From IMG/VR virus record IMGVR_UViG_3300042450_000422, positions 1-22,441 of that record: 22,441 bases of DNA; one strand, given 5' to 3'. A program made the translations under genes and the position numbers. The notes beneath the pieces were generated by a model that did no database searches, was not told where the DNA came from, and was given only the letters and a program-made list of their open reading frames with translations. The first letter of the stretch is position 1. Every line of letters begins with the position of its first letter. Origin of the DNA: a virus. Below, in pieces: positions 3,609 to 19,455 of this stretch.

Positions 3609-5252
3609 ATTAACTGAGTCTTCAGTAGTCATTCTATTTAAGTCTTGAGTTAATAAGAATGGTTCATTAGAGTTATCTAATATTGATGGTAAGCAATCAG
3701 CATCTGAGTCACCACATTGAACTTTAACAACCTTATTTTCTTTCTCAACTAAGTCAATGTTAAACGAACCTAAGTAGGTATCTGCATCTTGCCATTCAAT
3801 AGTAGGAAATGCATTGTCTTGTGGAAACATCAACACACCATTGACATAGCAATTGTCATAGTAAAAGATGGTAGAAAGAAAGTCAAGTACATACTCAGGT
3901 AGTCTACCAAAAAAGTATGTCCATTGTTTTAATCTATTGACATAATTAGCTGACCACTTACCCGATGCATATCTAAATGTGTTAGCATTGGTCACGTATT
4001 GAGCCTTTGACCTTTTGCCTTCAAGTCTTATCATTGGTAAAAATGATGAACCACCAAATGCTAAATTGAATTGGTCTTGAGCATTACACCCTTCAATCTT
4101 AAAGTATTTGCATGAATCATTATAGTCACCAATTGTAAGTATGTCACTAAACATATCCCATTGTATGTCGGATTCTGCAATTTGAATGTCAACATAATTC
4201 AATATTGCGGCGGCAGGTAATCCACCAAATTGTTGAACTAATATCTCAAGTGGGTTGTTGCCATCGGCAGTGATAAGCACCGTCTGATATCCAGTGCCAA
4301 ATACTTGCACCTCCTCTGTTCCAACTTTTACATAAATGCGCACATTGCTGCGGCTCTCGATGAACACACCCACATTATACTGCAAGCCATCGCATAAGTC
4401 ATTGCTTATGCTTTGAGTTATTGTAGCTTGTTGTGAACTTAATGAAAAACCAAACGCAACCGACCCTTCGCTTAGAGTCACAAGTGCGTTGCTTGGAGTC
4501 CATCCTGCCACCCTTCCTAAAGAATCGCTAAACACGCCATTGAAAACATAGTTCTGCCCACAGGTGTTGGTGCAGAAGTCTGTCATGGCTAATCGATAGC
4601 ACCCTGCCCCAAGCTCTACATCCGTCAAGTCAAAGGCAAATGTTATCTTATTGTCCTTAAGCGTGTAAAGCGGAGCAATCATATCAACCGTATCCAATGT
4701 CTCTGCATCCACAATACCCACCTTCATCTGATTGCCAGATGCAAGACCTTCAACTTTGATTCCGCTTGTGCTCAGACAGCCTACCCATCCATTGATATTG
4801 GGAGTCTGAAACACAAGAGTCATGCTGTTGCCAGTGATTGTTGGATTGGCAAAGAACAGCGTGTAAGTACCAGCTAATGTTATCTGATAACTACTACTTC
4901 CATACATTTCAACATTCAATGTGCCTTGCTCCAATGTCAAGATGGTGAACGTCACTTGATAAAGTTGGTAGGTGTAGTTGGTTGTTAATGAAATAGCATA
5001 GATGCCGCTATCTATAACATCATCGCTGCAAATGGTATTATCTTCAAGGTTGTTGCCCCACCCTGATTGAAATGTATCATAAGCATACAGCACCGACAAT
5101 GGGCAAGGTGTTGACTCCACTTGAAAGAATATTTGGTCATTAAAATCAATCAATTGTTTATATTCATTACTCCCACATTCAATACAAGGTGTTAGTATGT
5201 CATCTTGTGTATGAAATATAATAGGCTGATTGGGTATAGATATAAAACTCAT
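3591..5252 (-). CDS. Large tail/baseplate protein with lectin-like insert (553 aa)
   Basis: The order downstream of the tape measure points to a tail-tip or baseplate protein. Its ends (about residues 1-50 and 375-553) share composition with neighbouring genes. The middle, roughly residues 35-350 (about 4200-5150), is richer in G+C and uses codons such as GCC, GCG and CGG that are rare elsewhere here. This middle part looks like beta-sandwich modules; the second begins NGVFSDSLGRVAGWT and resembles carbohydrate-binding (CBM4/9-like or galactose-binding-like) domains. A plausible role is binding host surface glycans. The start overlaps the preceding gene by four bases (ATGA). The function is inference; the compositional shift is visible directly. 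Confidence 0.66.
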   Translation of the reverse strand: MSFISIPNQPIIFHTQDDILTPCIECGSNEYKQLIDFNDQIFFQVESTPCPLSVLYAYDTFQSGWGNNLEDNTICSDDVIDSGIYAISLTTNYTYQLYQVTFTILTLEQGTLNVEMYGSSSYQITLAGTYTLFFANPTITGNSMTLVFQTPNINGWVGCLSTSGIKVEGLASGNQMKVGIVDAETLDTVDMIAPLYTLKDNKITFAFDLTDVELGAGCYRLAMTDFCTNTCGQNYVFNGVFSDSLGRVAGWTPSNALVTLSEGSVAFGFSLSSQQATITQSISNDLCDGLQYNVGVFIESRSNVRIYVKVGTEEVQVFGTGYQTVLITADGNNPLEILVQQFGGLPAAAILNYVDIQIAESDIQWDMFSDILTIGDYNDSCKYFKIEGCNAQDQFNLAFGGSSFLPMIRLEGKRSKAQYVTNANTFRYASGKWSANYVNRLKQWTYFFGRLPEYVLDFLSTIFYYDNCYVNGVLMFPQDNAFPTIEWQDADTYLGSFNIDLVEKENKVVKVQCGDSDADCLPSILDNSNEPFLLTQDLNRMTTEDSVNLYQEF

Positions 5253-7270
5253 CTTAGTATCTTGTTTGATTTAAGTTCAAATGATGCTTCTTGTTCAATG
5301 ATGCTTTTGACATCCAACTTCTTGATGTATCCTTTAATAACTCTTAACGGGTCATCCCATCTACCAAATGAAATTGGTCTTGAAGAGTTATCAAGTATCT
5401 GCTCAATCTCAGTCATCGTTAATGGTCGGTCAAACTTATACAATAATCTTCTAATTGAGTTAGGGTCAACTTCAACCAATGCACTTGGCTCAAATGGAGT
5501 TCCTTTTATATATAATCTTGTTGCTCTTGACAGACCACTTACATTAACAGAATTTATTACTGGTTGGTCGCAAGTTGTTACATTTGCAACAAAATTACCT
5601 ACAATATCAATTCTTATTAAGTCAGTTTGATTACAAGCTACTTGTATATCAAAATCACAATATGCTACTGATAAACCAAGATATGTTGGTGATAATGCAC
5701 CATAAGTTGTTTGTACCAATGTACCTGAAGAATCAAATCTTCTTATTAATGCTTGAAATCTTCTACCTTTAAATCTTGCAGCAATTTGTGGAACAGCACC
5801 AAATGCAATGCTTCCTTCAACTTGATAAAGACCAGTATATGGTACACTATATGTTTGACCATCAAATAAATTATTAGGGTCAAAAAATTGATTTCCAAAA
5901 ACTAGGTAGCTACTATTAAATCCGCTATAATTTAAATTACCACCAAAGTTTATTTGAAAATTTGGGTAAGAAGATGGATTGTAATTTGAATTAGCAATTA
6001 CTATAGTATCATATGGATTAAATGCAACAGATAAATATTGAAATAAGCTATTAGGAAAACCACCAAGCCAGTTCTGAGATACTTGTTCATTTATGTAATC
6101 GGCATTATATACATGACCTCCTATACCTAATGGGTCTTGGTCATCTGCATAAATTGGTTCTGTTGACCCATAAAAGTTTGCATCAACAAGTACCATTCCC
6201 AAATCATACTGGTCATTATTATACCTCCACATATCATCAATTACATTAGTATCAAAAACAACATCTCCACTTTTCAAATCCATTACATTAGATGTATTAC
6301 AATCTCCCAGTATACCAAAGGTTTCATCTCTAAATCCACGAAATGCAATCTGTGGAAATAAACAACCACCAGCACCACCATTACATTGTGATGGATACAA
6401 GAATGGGTCAGAGCCAAAGTTCACAGCCGCATATAGCTGAGTCTTATCAAATGCCATCTTTATATCAGGTTGGTCATATAAGTTTGCTGAAGGGTTAAGT
6501 TGTTGAAAATAATCATAATTTTCAATTCTTAATAATGGTCTACCATTAGATTGTCTTTCAATCACCATTCCCAATCTTATCTTTTTGTTAAGTGCTTGAT
6601 ACAACTTATCAAAGGTCATCTGAGTAGGTGATTGGTTTGGAGTTCTAATGGCTAAACCATTTGTCATCATCAGAGTTTTGCCATATCCTACGCTATCAAT
6701 CTGGTTGCGGAAGTAGTCGCTTTCAAAATCTACAAAATTATCACTCATACAACTAACAAGAAACTTCAATGCATCATATATCTTGATACATCCAACAAGG
6801 TTTCCCATGTCAAAGTTTCCATTAGATGGATTAAAAAATGCAACATCATAAATAGTTGGTGTTACTATTGGTTGCAAGTTTTTTGTTATAGGAGAATTAC
6901 TATAAAATGGAATACTTTTATTGTTATTAATCTTAGTTGAAAATGAATCATCGTATAACTTAGTTGAAACACTACACCTATCAATGTCAAATGTACATTC
7001 ACTAACTACTATATACCCCTTAGTTAATTTCTTCCAAAAACCATCACAAATATATTGTACCTCAACATCAATCAATGAACAACCACCAGTATCAATTAAA
7101 TTATTGTAGATGTATTCAAATGCACCAGCAGTAAAGTTAAGTTCATTATTAAAGGAAACTATACGAGCGTTAATAGTTGACTCTTCTGCTATAGTAAAAC
7201 CAAATTCATTAGCATTAGTTGGTTGACCTCTATCAGCACCATCAATTAAGAATCTTATGTCTACTGCCAT
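5249..7270 (-). CDS. Large tail protein with C1q-like jelly-roll segment (673 aa)
   Basis: This gene directly follows the tape measure gene, overlapping its end by ten bases, so a distal tail, hub or baseplate role is likely. The N-terminus (MAVDIRFLIDGADRGQPTNA) and the cysteine-containing segments that follow look like a beta-rich assembly domain. A region beginning with YSVPYTGLYQVEGSIAF, in the C-terminal third, resembles the C1q/TNF-like jelly-roll pattern in which an aromatic strand follows 'tGlY'. Such folds occur in receptor-binding virion proteins. The C-terminus (PLTMTEIEQILDN, then GYIKKLDVKSII) is not recognised. The gene is notably A+T-rich. No enzyme motif such as a peptidase or lyase is evident. 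Confidence 0.65.
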   Translation of the reverse strand: MAVDIRFLIDGADRGQPTNANEFGFTIAEESTINARIVSFNNELNFTAGAFEYIYNNLIDTGGCSLIDVEVQYICDGFWKKLTKGYIVVSECTFDIDRCSVSTKLYDDSFSTKINNNKSIPFYSNSPITKNLQPIVTPTIYDVAFFNPSNGNFDMGNLVGCIKIYDALKFLVSCMSDNFVDFESDYFRNQIDSVGYGKTLMMTNGLAIRTPNQSPTQMTFDKLYQALNKKIRLGMVIERQSNGRPLLRIENYDYFQQLNPSANLYDQPDIKMAFDKTQLYAAVNFGSDPFLYPSQCNGGAGGCLFPQIAFRGFRDETFGILGDCNTSNVMDLKSGDVVFDTNVIDDMWRYNNDQYDLGMVLVDANFYGSTEPIYADDQDPLGIGGHVYNADYINEQVSQNWLGGFPNSLFQYLSVAFNPYDTIVIANSNYNPSSYPNFQINFGGNLNYSGFNSSYLVFGNQFFDPNNLFDGQTYSVPYTGLYQVEGSIAFGAVPQIAARFKGRRFQALIRRFDSSGTLVQTTYGALSPTYLGLSVAYCDFDIQVACNQTDLIRIDIVGNFVANVTTCDQPVINSVNVSGLSRATRLYIKGTPFEPSALVEVDPNSIRRLLYKFDRPLTMTEIEQILDNSSRPISFGRWDDPLRVIKGYIKKLDVKSIIEQEASFELKSNKILR

Positions 7271-11892: not shown

Positions 11893-13210
11893 AGGTATCT
11901 TTTTAAAATTGAATTTACAAAGTAACGGAAACAATCAAGAAAATCTGCCCTCTCTGATAAGTTTTTTCTGTTTGACTTTATTATACCACCATCACTATTA
12001 CATTGTACTTGTTTAGCATCATAAACGAATCCTTTACACCTAACTGAGTTGACCTTTACATCAAGTCTTGTTAATGCGTTATTGCAGTCTATTCGACTAT
12101 TATAGTGCGTAGGGTTAGCTGGTATGATTATCTGTGAGTCAGCAAGGTATAACCTTCTTTTGATTTGGGTATAGGCACTTGAGTTATCACGTTGTTGGAT
12201 ACTCCTACCATTACCCATCGCATCACCAGTTATCCTAAGTAGACCACGAGGTACATTAAGACTTTCAACATAATCACAGAATGCATCAATGCTACCTTTG
12301 TCAATGTTTATCTCACCAACTACTGAACAACCTTTAGTTATGTGTTGCTGAATGATTAGTGCTGAGAGTGGGTTAATGTTAAAATCGACTGAGATGAATA
12401 CTGGTAGGTTAGGATTGATGGTTAAGGAATCGTCAATGTGTCTATCATCATCCCAAGCATATAAGAATGGATTATTAACTTCATCCATTACATCCCAATC
12501 ACCTTCAACAAATCGTGCATACTGAATTGGTGGTAGTTCTTTAAGTGACTCTAAGTAGTCTTGACTTATGTATGGGTTATCTGTGATACGTGAGTTAATG
12601 TATGACCACTTATCAGGTAATGTACCATTTCGCCACCTTTCGTAGATAACTGACTTCACCCAGTTGTTAGCTGGGTTGCAAGTAGCCAAACATACTATTG
12701 GTGCTTGACCTAATGCTTTATTCCAACTACCTATTCTTTCTTGAACCTTGTAAAATGTTGCTTCTTGTAGTTCGTTTACCTCGTCAAGACCAGCACCGTT
12801 TACCTCAAGTCCTCTAAATCTATTTAAGTCTTTATCATCATCAAATGATTCAGCCATGAAGATTAACTCTGAACCATTGGTAAACGTAACTACATTGGTC
12901 TCACGATTCCATGAACTAATGTATTGATTCAATCCATCGTTAAGTATTGAACTAAATGATGGAAAGGTAGTCCTCTTTAAATCGGGTAAGGTCTTACGAA
13001 TGATTACCCATCTTGAGCGTGGGTAGAGTAAACAGAGTGATGATAGTGTTAGTAGCAACCAGTATGTCTTACCACCACGTTATTCTTTCCCCCTTACATT
13101 TCTGCAAGGGGCAGCCATCGTATAGCACCACCGAATACAATAACCTTCTTGTATCCGTTGATAGCCATATCGTAGGCTTTAGTTTGTCTCTTAGTTAGTT
13201 TGAATGACAT
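11889..13210 (-). CDS. terL: Large terminase subunit (TerL), frame interrupted in Walker A
   Basis: TerL is the ATPase and nuclease that packages DNA into the head. The first part (ATG at 13210) reads 31 residues ending VIVFGGAIR, and the rest resumes as [11 protein letters not shown] from GGT at 13076; together they restore the classic Walker A of phage terminases. Between them 41 bases (13077-13117) break the frame. The second part has a Walker B-like [10 protein letters not shown], a coupling ATCNPANNW, and nuclease acidic residues in [14 protein letters not shown] and ITGDAMGNG. Without the gap the product is 426 residues, normal for TerL. The start overlaps the HNH gene end. The gene may be read through by bypassing, may be a natural mutant, or may carry an assembly error. 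Confidence 0.85.
13077..13117 (-). other. 41-nt coding gap with GAAA-capped hairpin in terL
   Basis: This stretch separates the Arg codon CGA (13120-13118) from GGT at 13076 and is not part of the expected protein. CCCCTTGCA (13111-13103) pairs with TGTAAGGGG (13098-13090) around a GAAA loop: nine pairs including one G-U. Frame 1 meets TAA at 13096-13094 inside the 3' arm. The downstream frame has TAA at 13082-13080, directly before a synonymous Arg codon CGT (13079-13077). The trinucleotide ACG occurs at both borders. Take-off at CGA and landing at CGT, both read by one tRNA-Arg(ICG), would restore TerL. Confidence 0.7.
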
Positions 13211-13715
13211 ATGCTTTGTTTAATCTCTTTATTGATGAAATAGAACAATTAAACATATCTGCTATAATTTGATTCTTAACTCCTTTAGATTTCAAATCAA
13301 CTATTGCCTCAATGCCTTCTTTAGTTTGTTTACATCTATGATGTAGGTGCAGTCTATTAGATTTACTCAAACCTAATTTATATGCGTGTATTTGATTTTC
13401 TGAGTTATTGACCCATTCAAGATTATCAACTGCATTGTTTAATTTATTGCCGTCAATATGGTTAACTTGTGGTTTACTATATTCATTGTCAATAAATGCC
13501 ATAGCAACTATCCTATGCAGTTTATAAGTAATTAATTTACCATCTTTCATTATGGCAAATCTCTTATAGCCTTTATTATCTATTGCTGGTTTTAACATCT
13601 TGCCCTTCAATCTTAATTGATTCTTAGATGTTGTAACTATTCTATCAATGCTTCTAACATTGCCTAAGTTTGAAACCTCGTAACCAGTCTCAAATACTTT
13701 CCATAACTCATTCAT
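13191..13715 (-). CDS. NUMOD4/HNH homing endonuclease
   Basis: The 174-residue protein starts with a NUMOD4 motif ([20 protein letters not shown], residues 3-22). It then has an HNH core with [11 protein letters not shown] (H67) and [19 protein letters not shown] (N85, H86, N92, N98), and ends in a helix-turn-helix ([15 protein letters not shown]) for DNA recognition. Such enzymes cut alleles lacking a neighbouring element and spread by repair. It overlaps the TerS stop by eight bases (ATGAATGA) and the TerL start by about 20, so it is stitched between the two terminase genes without an intron. About 75 bases downstream is the 41-nt interruption in TerL. Reads as intact. Confidence 0.9.
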
Positions 13716-15067: not shown

Positions 15068-15278
15068 ACTGCTCTTTGTAAAATTCTAATGCCCCACCAT
15101 TTATAAATCCATGTTGTTCACCATCTTCTTGACCGATGTCATAAGCAGACATGATTTCATTCTTATGCTGGTATACAATTCCATCATAGTTTGAATTGAG
15201 CCATTCAATAAATTCATCAATGTTAAGTTCATTTTGTTGTTGGTAGATTAGTTCAACAACTGATTGTTCAGCAGCCAT
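15060..15278 (-). CDS. Hypothetical acidic phage protein (72 aa)
   Basis: The preferred start is the ATG at 15278, within the end of the preceding gene (ATGGCTGCTGA). A frame opening at 15320 would overlap far more. The 72-residue product begins MAAEQSVVELIYQQQNELNI and is acidic and helical, with two aromatic-rich helices and a C-terminus HGFINGGALEFYKEQYG. This pattern is seen in small phage proteins of unknown function. It overlaps the next gene start by eight bases. Confidence 0.55.
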   Translation of the reverse strand: MAAEQSVVELIYQQQNELNIDEFIEWLNSNYDGIVYQHKNEIMSAYDIGQEDGEQHGFINGGALEFYKEQYG

Positions 15279-15477
15279 AGTGTTCAGATTTAGTTGGTTT
15301 AATTGATTTGTGTTCAGCACTCACCTTATCAAGGTATTCTTTGACCATTACCTTGATTAATGCCTTATGCGATGTTGGTATGCGAAATGTGATGTTAATT
15401 GTTCGTTCACCATACTTAAAGGGATGACCAGCACCTATCCTCTTACCACCTCTGTTATCTTTCTTTTTTAGTTCCAT
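15268..15477 (-). CDS. Possible ribbon-helix-helix DNA-binding protein (69 aa)
   Basis: The start chosen is the ATG at 15477; the frame extends to a TTG at 15486. The N-terminus is basic and flexible (MELKKKDNRGGKRIGAGHPF), a frequent lead-in in small phage DNA-binding proteins. It is followed by a strand RTINITFRIP and two helices (THKALIKVMVKEYLDKV region) consistent with a ribbon-helix-helix regulator. It is the first gene after a 42-base gap that holds a -7-like box. A role as an autoregulator of this downstream operon is plausible but unproven. Confidence 0.55.
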   Translation of the reverse strand: MELKKKDNRGGKRIGAGHPFKYGERTINITFRIPTSHKALIKVMVKEYLDKVSAEHKSIKPTKSEHYGC

Positions 15478-15483
15478 AGTCAA

Positions 15484-15491
15484 CAAATATA
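15484..15491 (-). promoter_or_regulatory. -7 box (TATATTTG) next to the 69-aa gene start
   Basis: TATATTTG on the minus strand fits TAnnTTTG and ends six bases before the ATG at 15477. No TTG is found at the proper upstream distance. If active, transcription would start at or beside the start codon, giving a leaderless mRNA. Judged from sequence only. Confidence 0.3.
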
Positions 15492-15519: not shown

Positions 15520-16230
15520 TTATTGATTGTCATTTACTTTTTCGTTATAGTGTTTAGGATATGGTTTTTGTTTTAATAATACTTTACTTTTCCATTTTTG
15601 GTCAATCCAATATATATATCTGAATTGTCTCAAAGTATGACTTGTACATCTTTCTTTATTTGCTTGTAGTAAATCATATTTTTTACCTCCAGCTTTTCTA
15701 CTTGTCATCATACTATTGTGATATACTTCATCGTCTAATTCCCAAAATGTAGATGTATGTTCACCATAATAATCAAAGTTTGCACCTTGATAAACTATAC
15801 CATACCCTCCACACCTTTCATCTGCAAATGATTGAACCCACTTGATTGTTTTTATCTTGCTTCTAATGTATTTTATTGAGTAACTAATAGCCATACTTTC
15901 AGAATTTCTTGGTGCTATATCATCTAACCACATTCTATTCAATTCTAAGTATTGATTCATTTCAGTATCTTTTACAACACTACCCGCACTTGCTGGATTC
16001 ATAGCGTAACCAAATTGCAAAACACCTACTATAATATCATTCATAAAAACACCTAAATGAATATAGGTAGCATTGTAAAACTTTTTACTATAATGATTTT
16101 TTACAATTATTGAGTTAGCTTTATTTCTATCTATTTCTTTAATGCAAAATTCCTTATTACCAAATCCTATTATTTCTTTAGAGCCAAACATAGATAGTTG
16201 GTCGCTATATATTAAATCTTTTTTAGACAT
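15520..16230 (-). CDS. Mom-like DNA modification protein (GNAT fold)
   Basis: The 236-residue protein matches the pattern of phage Mu Mom-type proteins, which modify adenines in phage DNA and so block host restriction. It has NHYSKK (45-50), IHLGVF (57-62), GVLQFGY (69-75), YLELNRMWLDD (94-104) followed by PRNSES (107-112), and SFADERCGGYGIVYQGANF (134-152), the order expected of this GNAT-like family. It sits in the replication module after the helicase, with a PP-loop enzyme nearby. The actual modification here could differ from Mu's. It begins six bases after the tiny Cys-rich gene. A+T content is higher than in flanking genes, suggesting separate acquisition. Confidence 0.74.
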   Translation of the reverse strand: MSKKDLIYSDQLSMFGSKEIIGFGNKEFCIKEIDRNKANSIIVKNHYSKKFYNATYIHLGVFMNDIIVGVLQFGYAMNPASAGSVVKDTEMNQYLELNRMWLDDIAPRNSESMAISYSIKYIRSKIKTIKWVQSFADERCGGYGIVYQGANFDYYGEHTSTFWELDDEVYHNSMMTSRKAGGKKYDLLQANKERCTSHTLRQFRYIYWIDQKWKSKVLLKQKPYPKHYNEKVNDNQ

Positions 16231-16236
16231 TGTATT

Positions 16237-16356
16237 TTATTTACATTTTTTGTTAGTACAAAATATCTTACCATGATACACCTTTGCAAATTCGCACTTA
16301 CCACCTCTTATCTCGTAGTAGTTAAACTCACAAGGTAATGGTTCAGAAAGGTTCAT
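16237..16356 (-). CDS. Tiny Cys-rich protein (39 aa)
   Basis: The ATG at 16356 lies inside the helicase end (14-base overlap) and gives MNLSEPLPCEFNYYEIRGGK followed by CEFAKVYHGKIFCTNKKCK. Four cysteines and a histidine could form a small zinc-binding unit. Longer frames starting at 16446 or 16386 would overlap the helicase more deeply and are less likely. Function is unknown; it may be a helicase partner by position only. Confidence 0.5.
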   Translation of the reverse strand: MNLSEPLPCEFNYYEIRGGKCEFAKVYHGKIFCTNKKCK

Positions 16357-17728
16357 TGGTTTCTTTATCCCAGTCTTTATCTGCATAATGTCGTAAGTCT
16401 TTAGGTTGTGGTAAGTAAGTGCTGCCAATGTCGTGAGTAACCACATCAGTAAAGTTGGTCATATTGGGTGAGTGCCTGAACTCAACCACACCAGTAGCAC
16501 CTTGCCTATGTTTTTCAAATAGGTAGAAGATGTGATTAGTGTATGGTGTATCATTTTCATCACTCAATCCATAGTATGATGGTCTCCATACAAAAGCAAC
16601 TGAGTCAGCATCTTGCTCAAGTGAACCTGACTCACGTAAATCAGATAATATTGGTTTCTTGTCAGGTCTCTTTTCAACTTCTCTGCTCAACTGAGCAAGT
16701 GCTATAATTGGTATGCCAAGTTCCTTTTGTGCTGCTTTTAATGTTCTACTTATCTCAGCTACCTCAGCCTCACGATTGCCACCTTTAAAGCCTTCTATGG
16801 TCATCAATTGAAGATAGTCTATAATAGCCCACTTGCATCTACCTTTTCGATGTTCTCTCTTCATTACCCTTATTGCCTCGTGAACTCCACACCTTGCCTT
16901 ATCGTAGATTAAGAATGGTGCTTTCTCTATGTTACCTATTACCTTTTCAAATGAATGTAACTCAGATTGACTAAGGTTACCATCACGTAACCTTGAAGAG
17001 TGGATGGTGTCACCAGCATCTTGAAGTATTAACCTTTGACATAGTTGACTCTTATTCATCTCAAGATTAAAGTATATACCAGCCTCACCACTTTTCATTC
17101 CGTGAAATAGTGCTAATGCAGTCTTACCCATTGATGGTCTACCAGCAATGATTATGAATTCGGGATGGAATCCACCAGTAAACTTATTTAGTGACTTTAG
17201 ACCAGTCTCAAGTCCAGTAGTCTTACCCGATAATGTTAGTGCTGCTCTTCTATAGTATGCCTCACGTTCATCATTGGTTAGTTCAGATAGGTTAATGATA
17301 TTATCTGAGTTAGTACCAGTATCAAGTAGGTTGGTAAGAGATTTAATTATTGATGTGGCAGTTGTAAAACCATCGTTATTGATAAGACCTAATGACTGCT
17401 CAATTACAATTGATGCTATTGAACGCTTGATGTGATTGTCTTTTAAGATAGCAATGTATTCGTTAACTGGCTCATTGTAGGTTAGGTTGTTTGACCAAGT
17501 AACTATCTCAGATGTTTCTTTAGGTGTGAACTTATCTACTTCATTGGCAGTCATAAAGAAATTCACCAAGTTAGGAGTAAGACCTTTGTCAATTACTTTC
17601 TTGATTACTTGGTAACATCGTGAGGTAAGCACCTCATTGAATAGATGCTCACCTAATTGTGGTATAAGTTCCTGATGGGTTTCACCAGTCATAAGTATGC
17701 CTATGAGTGCTTGTTGTGGGTTAGTCAT
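16343..17728 (-). CDS. dnaB: DnaB-type replicative DNA helicase
   Basis: The 461-residue protein has the two-part layout of DnaB. A helical N-terminal domain (about 1-130) opens with PQQALIGILM, and a RecA-like ATPase domain contains Walker A GRPSMGKT (196-203), NLEMNKSQL (221-229), Walker B IIDYLQLM (302-309), IALAQLSREVEKRP (342-355) and DLRESGSLEQDAD (363-375). It should unwind phage DNA as a hexamer at the fork. There is no primase domain, so priming would come from another protein or the host. The start at 17728 follows an A+T-rich gap of 62 bases. All key residues appear intact. Confidence 0.95.
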   Translation of the reverse strand: MTNPQQALIGILMTGETHQELIPQLGEHLFNEVLTSRCYQVIKKVIDKGLTPNLVNFFMTANEVDKFTPKETSEIVTWSNNLTYNEPVNEYIAILKDNHIKRSIASIVIEQSLGLINNDGFTTATSIIKSLTNLLDTGTNSDNIINLSELTNDEREAYYRRAALTLSGKTTGLETGLKSLNKFTGGFHPEFIIIAGRPSMGKTALALFHGMKSGEAGIYFNLEMNKSQLCQRLILQDAGDTIHSSRLRDGNLSQSELHSFEKVIGNIEKAPFLIYDKARCGVHEAIRVMKREHRKGRCKWAIIDYLQLMTIEGFKGGNREAEVAEISRTLKAAQKELGIPIIALAQLSREVEKRPDKKPILSDLRESGSLEQDADSVAFVWRPSYYGLSDENDTPYTNHIFYLFEKHRQGATGVVEFRHSPNMTNFTDVVTHDIGSTYLPQPKDLRHYADKDWDKETNEPF

Positions 17729-17733
17729 TTTTA

Positions 17734-17741
17734 CAAATGTA
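17734..17741 (-). promoter_or_regulatory. -7-like box (TACATTTG) beside helicase start
   Basis: TACATTTG on the minus strand fits TAnnTTTG and ends five bases before the helicase ATG. No TTG lies at a proper upstream distance. The surrounding gap (17729-17790) is A+T-rich with no other element seen. Transcription from it would be practically leaderless, so it may be a chance match. Confidence 0.25.
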
Positions 17742-17790
17742 TTATTTTATTTGATTGTGTTATACTTTATTATTTTAGATTCAATATATT

Positions 17791-18645
17791 TTATGAGCCA
17801 CATTCTGACCATACCTCACAACTTTCACCACCAAGTAAGTCAAGTTGGTAATTGTAAACATCTGAATCATTTAATACTTTACCATTCCAATTTTTTGATT
17901 GTTGTAATATTTCTTTGGCACTCCTATTATATCTAAAAAATGTTTTGTTATGACCTAATGGGTCTATTGGATATTTGATTTCCATTTCATTCATAAAATC
18001 AAATGCTGATGGATTCTCTTTTGCAATTTGAAATAGTTTTTTATCTGATTTTTTCCAGCACGTTTTACAATTGCCTTGATAACCTTTTAACTCTAATCTA
18101 AATGGCATTGATTTCCAATAAAGGTTTATCATAGGTTTAGTCATTGGTATCATTTTACTATTGATAAGAGGATAAATAAAACCCATTTTTTTATAATCTG
18201 CATTCATTCTATCTGTTTCATCTCTTCTAATACCTATTGCAGTATGATAATATTCATCATTAAACCATATTTTGGCAAATGATTTTATAGGATTTTGTTT
18301 TAACTCCCTTGTGCAATGTGGTGTTGCTGGATTTGGAATACCATATTTTTTAATTATAGATTCAAATGGCTCTCCTTTACGTTTAGCATATTCAAAATTG
18401 GTTAAGCTATAACCAGTTGATTTTCTTTCATCTTGGTAAACTAAAGCCTCAACCCATTTTAATTTCAATTCAAATTTAATATCACATCTTTCAACAAACT
18501 CTAATGTTTGTTCATTTTCAATTCCAGTATTTGCAAATACAAATACTATATTATCATATCCTATTTCTCTATAGTGTTTCTTTAACCATTGAGCCATAAA
18601 GCCCGATGTTTCACCACCCGAAAATGATACTAATAGATTTTTCAT
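17791..18645 (-). CDS. PP-loop (PAPS reductase-like) enzyme
   Basis: The start chosen is the ATG at 18645, giving 284 residues beginning MKNLLVSFSGGETSGFMAQW; a longer frame to 18705 would start with TTG in a repeat region. SFSGGETSG (7-15) is the PP-loop that binds adenylated substrates, as in PAPS reductases, tRNA thiolases and DndC. Cysteines at C111 (PHCTREL), C193-x2-C196 (NCKTCWKK), and C276 and C282 near the end may hold an iron-sulfur cluster or act as redox residues. GIRRDETDR (138-146) is a typical family segment. In a phage, with a Mom-like gene nearby, a nucleic-acid modification role is plausible. Sulfur assimilation is the alternative. Confidence 0.78.
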   Translation of the reverse strand: MKNLLVSFSGGETSGFMAQWLKKHYREIGYDNIVFVFANTGIENEQTLEFVERCDIKFELKLKWVEALVYQDERKSTGYSLTNFEYAKRKGEPFESIIKKYGIPNPATPHCTRELKQNPIKSFAKIWFNDEYYHTAIGIRRDETDRMNADYKKMGFIYPLINSKMIPMTKPMINLYWKSMPFRLELKGYQGNCKTCWKKSDKKLFQIAKENPSAFDFMNEMEIKYPIDPLGHNKTFFRYNRSAKEILQQSKNWNGKVLNDSDVYNYQLDLLGGESCEVWSECGS

Positions 18646-18667: not shown

Positions 18668-18705
18668 TTTTTGTACGTATTGATTTTGAGTTTTTGTACG
18701 TACAA
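18668..18705. repeat. Twin TTTTTGTACGTA repeats with 12-bp palindrome
   Basis: TTTTTGTACGTA occurs at 18668-18679 and 18691-18702, 23 bases apart, about two helical turns. The second copy is extended into the perfect palindrome TTGTACGTACAA (18694-18705). The pair fills the gap (18646-18705) between the DUF6291 gene and the PP-loop gene. The spacing and symmetry suggest a binding site for a dimeric regulator or a replication protein. Confidence 0.5.
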
Positions 18706-19455
18706 CTATTTTACATCGTCACCTACATAGTGTTGACCTTGTGATGAACGATTAAAGACTACTGGTGGTGACTTGACAAAGGTGTTAGTCTTATTGTTAT
18801 TGAGTTCAAAGATACCTACCCAGTTATTCTGTATTGAGTTTTCAAGAATCTTAATAGCAACATCTTTGTTAGCCTTTGATAAGTCTCTAAGTTTCTTAGT
18901 CAATAACTCAACTGCATTCTTAGTAGGTATTTTTTTCATATTGATTCTCATTTGAATAAAGTTGATGAATGTAGCATTAAGAGTTACATCAGTTCCTAAG
19001 TATTTCTCTGACTCAATCAACTTGACAAAATCAGTTATAGATTTTGGCTCTTTGTTATTCTTTACTTTAACTATTTCTCTTTCATTAACACTTACACTTA
19101 CATTATCATTTACATTATCATTATCAGTTGATTCTGTTGAACACACCTCAACACTTTCAACACGTGTTGATTCTGTTGAACTCTGTTGAATTTGTTTTAA
19201 TGCTTTGACTTCTGCTGACTTCTTACCAGCCTTACTCTTTGCTTCTATTGATTCTAAGTAACTTTCATTGTCTCTATCTAATTGTAGTTTGATAGGATTG
19301 AATACAAAGAATAGCATATTAGATGGCTCAGGAAATGTACCATACAACTTATACTCAAAGATTAATCTTGTTAGCTTACCTAATTGTTCATCATCCAAAA
19401 ATCTTATTGTATCATAAGAATCGTGGTATAATAGAAATGCCTTTTTACGTTTCAT
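18706..19455 (-). CDS. DUF6291-type replication protein
   Basis: The 249-residue protein starts MKRKKAFLLYHDSYDTIRFL followed by DDEQLGKLTRLIFEYKLYG and AFxxIKLQLDRDNESYLESI-like sequence, which is the DUF6291 pattern found in phage proteins at the place of replication initiators or DnaD-like helicase loaders. A low-complexity linker of Ser, Thr, Glu, Val and Asn (around residues 88-125) joins it to a helical C-terminal region ending in KTNTFVKSPPVV. The linker DNA holds repeats that look like an origin. It lies just downstream of a promoter plus structured RNA and upstream of helicase and PP-loop genes. Its role as initiator or loader is inference. Confidence 0.7.
   Translation of the reverse strand: MKRKKAFLLYHDSYDTIRFLDDEQLGKLTRLIFEYKLYGTFPEPSNMLFFVFNPIKLQLDRDNESYLESIEAKSKAGKKSAEVKALKQIQQSSTESTRVESVEVCSTESTDNDNVNDNVSVSVNEREIVKVKNNKEPKSITDFVKLIESEKYLGTDVTLNATFINFIQMRINMKKIPTKNAVELLTKKLRDLSKANKDVAIKILENSIQNNWVGIFELNNNKTNTFVKSPPVVFNRSSQGQHYVGDDVK
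19083..19190. repeat. Origin-like repeats inside DUF6291 gene
   Basis: TCTGTTGAA occurs three times (19133-19141, 19172-19180, 19182-19190). Two copies belong to a 16-base repeat GTTGATTCTGTTGAAC (19127-19142 and 19166-19181). Between them is the perfect 14-base palindrome TCAACACGTGTTGA (19157-19170). An A+T-rich run with repeated TTACATTATCA lies beside them (19083-19126). Iterons plus an A+T-rich zone inside an initiator gene is the lambda O type of origin. The repeats also encode the protein's low-complexity linker, so selection on protein is an alternative. Confidence 0.4.

Follow-up and report, generated by a model that had tools for sequence, protein, structure and literature searches.

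Mom and an SspD-related PP-loop protein as exchangeable cassettes beside the helicase gene of a phage lineage without close cultured relatives

Introduction

The Mom protein of phage Mu modifies adenines at (C/G)A(C/G)NPy, and its product is N6-methylcarbamoyl-adenine, with which the molecule name of the solved Mu enzyme agrees ("Methylcarbamoylase mom," PDB 8bv8). Among the PP-loop enzymes, NcsA and TtuA are tRNA thiolases of the three-cysteine [4Fe-4S] type, and SspD serves as sulfur-transfer subunit in SspABCD, a DNA phosphorothioation system in which, according to excerpts of PMC8092258, IscS can stand in for SspA as the sulfur donor. One family of phage PP-loop proteins, phrog_424, goes by the names NinC and "PAPS (phosphoadenosine phosphosulfate) reductase." Here we analyze a linear IMG/VR virus record of 22,441 bases (IMGVR_UViG_3300042450_000422), the whole of which we call the window. 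It carries a mom gene and a phrog_424 PP-loop gene on the two sides of a helicase gene. The original prediction for this DNA regarded the two as a candidate pair of DNA-modification genes and connected a need for modification with the absence of GATC sites from the window.

Results

Both open reading frames (ORFs) are real and flank the helicase gene as predicted. To place them, relatives were gathered via the terminase and via the helicase, which yielded 89 unique helicase-bearing loci (119 before the removal of near-copies), all related to one another. Two accessory slots can be delimited in these loci, slot A reaching from the helicase gene to the gene g14684 and slot B from the primosomal gene to the helicase gene. 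In the window, slot A holds mom and slot B holds the PP-loop gene, and the features concerned are as follows.

15268 to 15486, minus strand: conserved small ORF with the motif RGGKRxGAG, used as the marker of the downstream boundary of slot A
15520 to 16230, minus strand: Mom-family DNA modification protein of 236 amino acids (aa), cargo of slot A (PF25680, phrog_1384, homology to Mu Mom)
16237 to 16446, minus strand: small ORF containing cysteine, on the helicase side of slot A (Pfam gave no match at E<=0.1)
16343 to 17728, minus strand: DnaB-like replicative helicase between slots A and B (PF03796, E 5.5e-74; phrog_19)
17791 to 18645, minus strand: PP-loop (phrog_424/NinC-like) protein of 284 aa, related to SspD, cargo of slot B (phrog_424, PADLOC SspD, profile-profile comparison, tree, and AlphaFold2 [AF2] model); the length is counted from ATG, and the mechanical ORF reaches a TTG at 18705
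18706 to 19455, minus strand: DUF6291/primosomal-like gene, upstream boundary of slot B (PF19808, E 3.7e-21; phrog_6451, primosomal)

Within this phage lineage, Mom and the PP-loop gene are interchangeable cassettes of the two slots flanking the helicase gene. Mom was found in 4 of the 89 loci and phrog_424 in 9, with the window alone holding both. The window mom gene is identical to that of locus L002 at 711 of 711 nucleotides, and the neighboring stretches are 87 to 93% identical to those of L003, which has the same mom. The PP-loop gene that fills slot B of the window sits in slot A in L032, alone and in the place of Mom; the two copies share 88% identity over a 916-base block, and the neighbors on either side of that block are ordered differently.

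Slot A is nearly empty in most of the 89 loci. Where it is filled, it may hold Mom (the window, L002, L003, and L134), a PP-loop gene (L169, on the same contig as L032 and L060, as well as L180 and, with a second PP-loop subtype, L080 and L139), a C5 methyltransferase (L114, L131, L152, and L175), a small C5-like methyltransferase (L178), or a 379-aa ABC-ATPase/GNAT fusion (L164, positions 5099 to 6238, and L165), a predicted, uncharacterized type of acyl DNA modifier. These contents agree with excerpts of PMC7824862, in which ABC-ATPase/GNAT enzymes and the Mom proteins of phages are said to modify DNA. A second Mom type occupies slot A of L058, a locus that the helicase filter placed outside the 89. 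Slot B carries PP-loop genes in five loci, small C5-like methyltransferases in five, and a C5 enzyme in one, which brings the two slots together to 5 C5 enzymes, 6 small C5-like methyltransferases, and 2 ABC-GNAT fusions. Mom (4 of 4 genes) and phrog_424 (9 of 9) are confined to the slots, making up 13 of the 51 accessory genes there versus 0 of 161 elsewhere, and C5-type enzymes are concentrated in them as well (11 of 38 other accessory genes versus 3 of 161); because genes observed in the slots served as seeds for the modification models, these figures are a description of site sharing more than a test of it.

A C5-methyltransferase-like protein of 217 aa (L085, positions 187 to 840), shorter than a complete C5 enzyme would be, turns up again in slot B of L131, L136, L138, and L151, and in L136 and L138 its gene directly follows the PP-loop gene.

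The proposal that the two genes form a pair fared less well than that of their candidacy as DNA modifiers. Only 1 of the 12 clade loci carrying either gene has both, the other 11 holding one only, and L032 has the PP-loop gene by itself in the Mom slot. Counted by record, with many of the records being fragments, 28 of 30 Mom records lacked phrog_424 and 2 had it, and 17 of 19 PP-loop records lacked Mom; the 2 PP-loop records with Mom carry the same PP-loop and Mom proteins. We therefore reject an obligate pair on these co-occurrence counts. A single joint hypermodification pathway built from Mom and the PP-loop protein would fit their position on the two sides of one helicase gene in the window, and a phrog_424 gene shares a record with Mom in L008, L011, L047, and L048; with the same counts against it, such a pathway is highly improbable, the least probable of the explanations considered here. 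Candidacy as DNA modifiers, taken for each gene separately, is supported by family membership for Mom and, for the PP-loop gene, by its kinship to SspD and by the slots that it has in common with Mom and C5 methyltransferases.

The assignment of the first gene is straightforward. The protein matches PF25680 with 239.7 bits against a cutoff of 27.1 (E=3.1e-71, profile columns 2 to 202 of 202) and phrog_1384 with E=2.6e-60; its identity to phage Mu Mom is 48.0% across 95% of its length, and the match to the solved Mu enzyme is full-length (E 2.2e-65). When 31 sequences were aligned, Mu among them, conservation reached at least 95% in 19 columns, and the window protein keeps all 19, among them H46, Y47, S112, D137, Y147, and H171, residues of a sort that we take to be catalytic in Mu Mom. 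This homology strongly supports a true Mom relative, a DNA modifier by family membership, and equally strongly predicts an acyl-type modification of adenine. The small ORF at 16237 to 16446 was considered as an equivalent of Com and rejected, as it is present in relatives with and without Mom.

The second gene required a finer comparison. Its product matches PF01507 (E=1.8e-5) and phrog_424 (E=7.4e-47) and was matched in 402 phage records. The motifs SGGxTS and GxRxDE..R and the residues C111, K116, C193, and C196 do not vary among the 41 relatives aligned, which bears out the clustered cysteines noticed originally. In PADLOC, the SspD model was its only match (45.7 bits, residues 5 to 237), the DndC model giving none at E<=0.01, and none of the NCBIfam models for CysH, DndC, and TtcA matched at that threshold. 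When the SspD model was run on controls, it scored NinC of phage chi at 53.4 bits and matched other phage members too, most of them near full length; Escherichia coli CysH matched along a short stretch at 14.3 bits, and TtcA did not match. Six genomic SspD proteins scored 362 to 464 bits versus 45.7 bits for the window protein, values that mark the latter as a relative of SspD and not an orthologue.

Profile-profile alignment with hhalign gave the phage family a score of 125.7 with SspD (195 columns), 52.4 with DndC (124 columns), 40.9 with CysH (62 columns), and 29.8 with TtcA (47 columns; one sequence), and the best partner of the SspD profile itself, among those tested, was the phage family. 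A 73-row tree placed the phage family, the second subtype PP2, the SCG family, and SspD together, with a branch (99/89) parting the phage family and the SspD side from CysH, DndC, and TtcA, the last being one long row of unsure placement. The gene thus did not turn out by phylogeny to be the tRNA or sulfur-assimilation enzyme that the original prediction had named as its counter-case. The cysteine motifs xCTxxLK and CxxC are kept in SspD and DndC and are absent from E. coli CysH, which has a single cysteine, at position 239. By profile, tree, and cysteine pattern, the nearest characterized relative of the PP-loop protein is SspD.

These comparisons also bear on two other functions. A sulfur-assimilation enzyme, that is, a reductase of PAPS or adenosine phosphosulfate that raises the host's cysteine supply, is what the names of PF01507 and phrog_424 would suggest, and PAPS reductases are among the top fold matches (Z 11.7) of the AF2 model, which has a PP-loop fold and a mean predicted local distance difference test score (pLDDT) of 91.1. 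The lack of a CysH model match, the short and low-scoring CysH alignment beside that of SspD, the separation in the tree, and the retention of the three-cysteine pattern make this function very unlikely, and a PAPS reductase in the sense of CysH is rejected on profile, tree, and cysteine pattern. Thiolation of tRNA, for example as a protection against anticodon nucleases or as a means to alter decoding in infection, we regard as quite unlikely. The three-cysteine type of NcsA and TtuA and fold matches of Z 10 to 11 argue for it; against it stand the weak sequence kinship to TtcA (one sequence), the alternation in the same slot with DNA methyltransferases and Mom, and the lack of any tRNA gene found in the window. 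A search of solved-structure sequences returned weak matches only, to NcsA (phmmer E 0.00084, best stretch 42 residues) and to PptA.

A further PP-loop family accompanies the phage family at some loci. An SCG paralogue, so called for its motif FSCG, is a near neighbor of the PP-loop gene in L043, L044 (2407 to 3159), L229 (7213 to 7920), and L242 (6861 to 7658), an arrangement that hints at two subunits in some phages. The paralogue of L044 strongly matches PptA (PDB 21fy), and over 250 residues the solved PptA chain is identical to a protein of Vibrio phage VH-5. A structure model of the SCG paralogue was poor (pLDDT 60.2), and 21fy was absent among the fold matches listed. In a pattern scan of genome contigs, 2 of 59 pattern matches were relatives. 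Near the helicase gene of one relative (L096, 2593 to 4460), a PP-loop gene of 404 aa that matches DndC weakly precedes a ParB-like gene, an arrangement resembling IbrA/IbrB.

The absence of GATC from the window is real, with 0 sites found and 61.8 +/- 8.0 expected from shuffles, and its proposed link to modification was not upheld. In 43 loci with a helicase at least 85% identical and neither gene, there were 46 GATC sites versus 1902 expected, 32 of the 46 lying in one locus (L168); PP-loop-only loci had 3 versus 370 expected (7 loci), and Mom-only loci had 0 versus 70 (3 loci). We therefore reject the idea that GATC loss results from either gene or signals its presence, and regard the loss as a lineage-wide trait; the target of Mu Mom contains no GATC. 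Across the lineage, GGCC, CTAG, CGCG, and CATG are also strongly avoided, and avoided 6-mers in relatives include GTGCAC (0 versus 87 expected) and GGTACC (2 versus 57 expected). Given this avoidance of GATC and other palindromes, phages of the lineage appear to face strong restriction and to avoid sites, with the two cassettes coming on top.

We also looked at 34 longer records of unrelated phages with a phrog_424 gene. A C5 or N4/N6 methyltransferase or Mom was present in 14 of the 34. Dropping G362, a near-copy of G361, left 13 records, and in 7 of these the PP-loop gene had its nearest such gene within 3 kilobases (kb), whereas random placement gave a mean of 2.4 (p=0.0045). One record of 169,658 bases (L233) has 16 N4/N6 methyltransferase matches at about 78 to 116 kb, clustered around its PP-loop gene at 112 kb.

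As for its wider setting, the window has no close cultured relative, with no megablast match among 50,697 phage records, and its nearest terminase is that of Flavobacterium phage 11b, at 27% identity. Its genes lie on the minus strand, in the order exonuclease-like genes, VRR/resolvase-like gene, DUF6291/primosomal gene, PP-loop gene, and DnaB-like helicase gene, and onward from there mom, small conserved ORFs, the terminase subunits separated by an HNH gene, structural genes, and portal. The HNH gene (13191 to 13715), homing-endonuclease-like, was found in few relatives only.

Discussion

Our analysis probably identifies Mom and the PP-loop gene as independent, exchangeable DNA-modification or anti-restriction cassettes that occupy two accessory slots flanking the helicase gene. 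Of this, the family assignments, the conserved residues, the cassette exchange, and the kinship to SspD are shown directly. That DNA is the substrate of the PP-loop protein, together with its chemistry and its benefit to the phage, we infer.

In the mechanism that we propose, Mom would convert some adenines of the phage DNA and thereby block restriction enzymes with overlapping sites. The PP-loop protein, as a stand-alone relative of SspD, would use ATP to adenylate its target and would pass sulfur on to it by way of a three-cysteine [4Fe-4S]-type site, which a host cysteine desulfurase would supply. The sulfur would most likely enter phage DNA and leave a phosphorothioate or another thio-mark, with which the DNA might pass as self or withstand nucleases.

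Several observations weigh against this proposal and have to be set beside it. The predicted fold of the PP-loop protein does not separate PAPS reductases from thiolases, as the comparison (Foldseek, VIA-align) ties PAPS reductases, NcsA, TilS, and LarE at Z of about 10.7 to 11.7, and DndC and SspD structures were absent among the fold matches listed. Models of SspB and SspC matched none of the 12 window ORFs scanned, a set taken from outside the structural ORFs of a record that is a linear fragment, and nicking by SspB is essential in SspABCD according to excerpts of PMC8092258. Methyltransferases overall show no concentration in the slots, where they make up 11 of 38 accessory genes as compared with 37 of 161 at other places (p=0.53); the reason is that N6-type enzymes, and ParB-like genes that the same model catches, sit elsewhere. 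Of the 26 slot-A genes of at least 150 aa, 11 were non-modification genes by the models used, and strict enrichment is partly circular given the seeding of those models. Finally, 20 of the 34 PP-loop records of unrelated phages had no C5, N4/N6, or Mom match.

With no SspB or SspC in the ORFs scanned, the PP-loop protein would act alone, borrow host parts, or use single strands generated by replication, a use that, we speculate, its location beside the helicase gene would suit. The same lack of partners in an SspD-like protein might instead indicate a counter-defense decoy, which joins or poisons the sulfur-transfer complex of a host Ssp, Dnd, or type-4 BREX system and does not modify phage DNA by itself. 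Every ATP-site and cysteine residue is conserved, as expected of an active enzyme, and the family is spread over many unrelated phages and is also found on plasmids, settings that need not include a host Ssp system; a decoy is therefore unlikely.

Returning to independent modification cassettes, their consequences reach beyond this lineage. phrog_424 is a very common phage family that is probably misnamed. More tentatively, and short of calling it probable, we suggest that the phage "PAPS reductase/NinC" proteins are one-gene SspD-related enzymes that thio-mark phage DNA, as phosphorothioate or thio-base, with only a host cysteine desulfurase as helper, and that replace, or are replaced by, Mom or cytosine methyltransferases at one slot, depending on the restriction systems of the host. 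No published link between SspD and phage PAPS-reductase genes was found in a search made without most of the subscription literature. In hundreds of phages, genes bear the annotation PAPS reductase and are read as sulfur metabolism; if these encode SspD-like DNA modifiers, a large category of auxiliary metabolism would become one of anti-restriction, and sulfur marks made on DNA by phages would be a concrete, testable prediction. A slot in which Mom, the PP-loop gene, and a methyltransferase replace one another is a natural experiment on the protection that each confers.

In comparison with known systems, the window Mom resembles Mu Mom in its full-length homology, 48% identity, and conserved H/Y/S/D/Y residues; it differs in belonging to a lineage without close cultured relatives that is not Mu-like, in having no recognized Com in the window, and in occupying a cassette slot by the helicase gene. 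The PP-loop protein resembles SspD, its best curated functional model, in its full PP-loop domain, its xCTxxLK and CxxC cysteines, and its side of the tree, whereas it stands alone, has the PP motif SGGETS instead of SGGKDS or SGGRDS, and is separated by a long branch; the SspB and SspC partners that would complete SspABCD had no match in the ORFs scanned. DndC is likewise a PP-loop protein with xCTxxLK and CxxC, but its model does not match the window protein and it falls on the opposite side of the tree. PptA represents a sister SCG family grouped in the tree with the phage and SspD rows, though of a different subfamily, with FSCG in place of FSGG. The phrog_424/NinC "PAPS reductases" of phage chi and Dickeya phage Sucellus belong to the same family as the window protein and are known, as far as we searched, by annotation only, whereas the window gene is found in slots that also carry modification genes.

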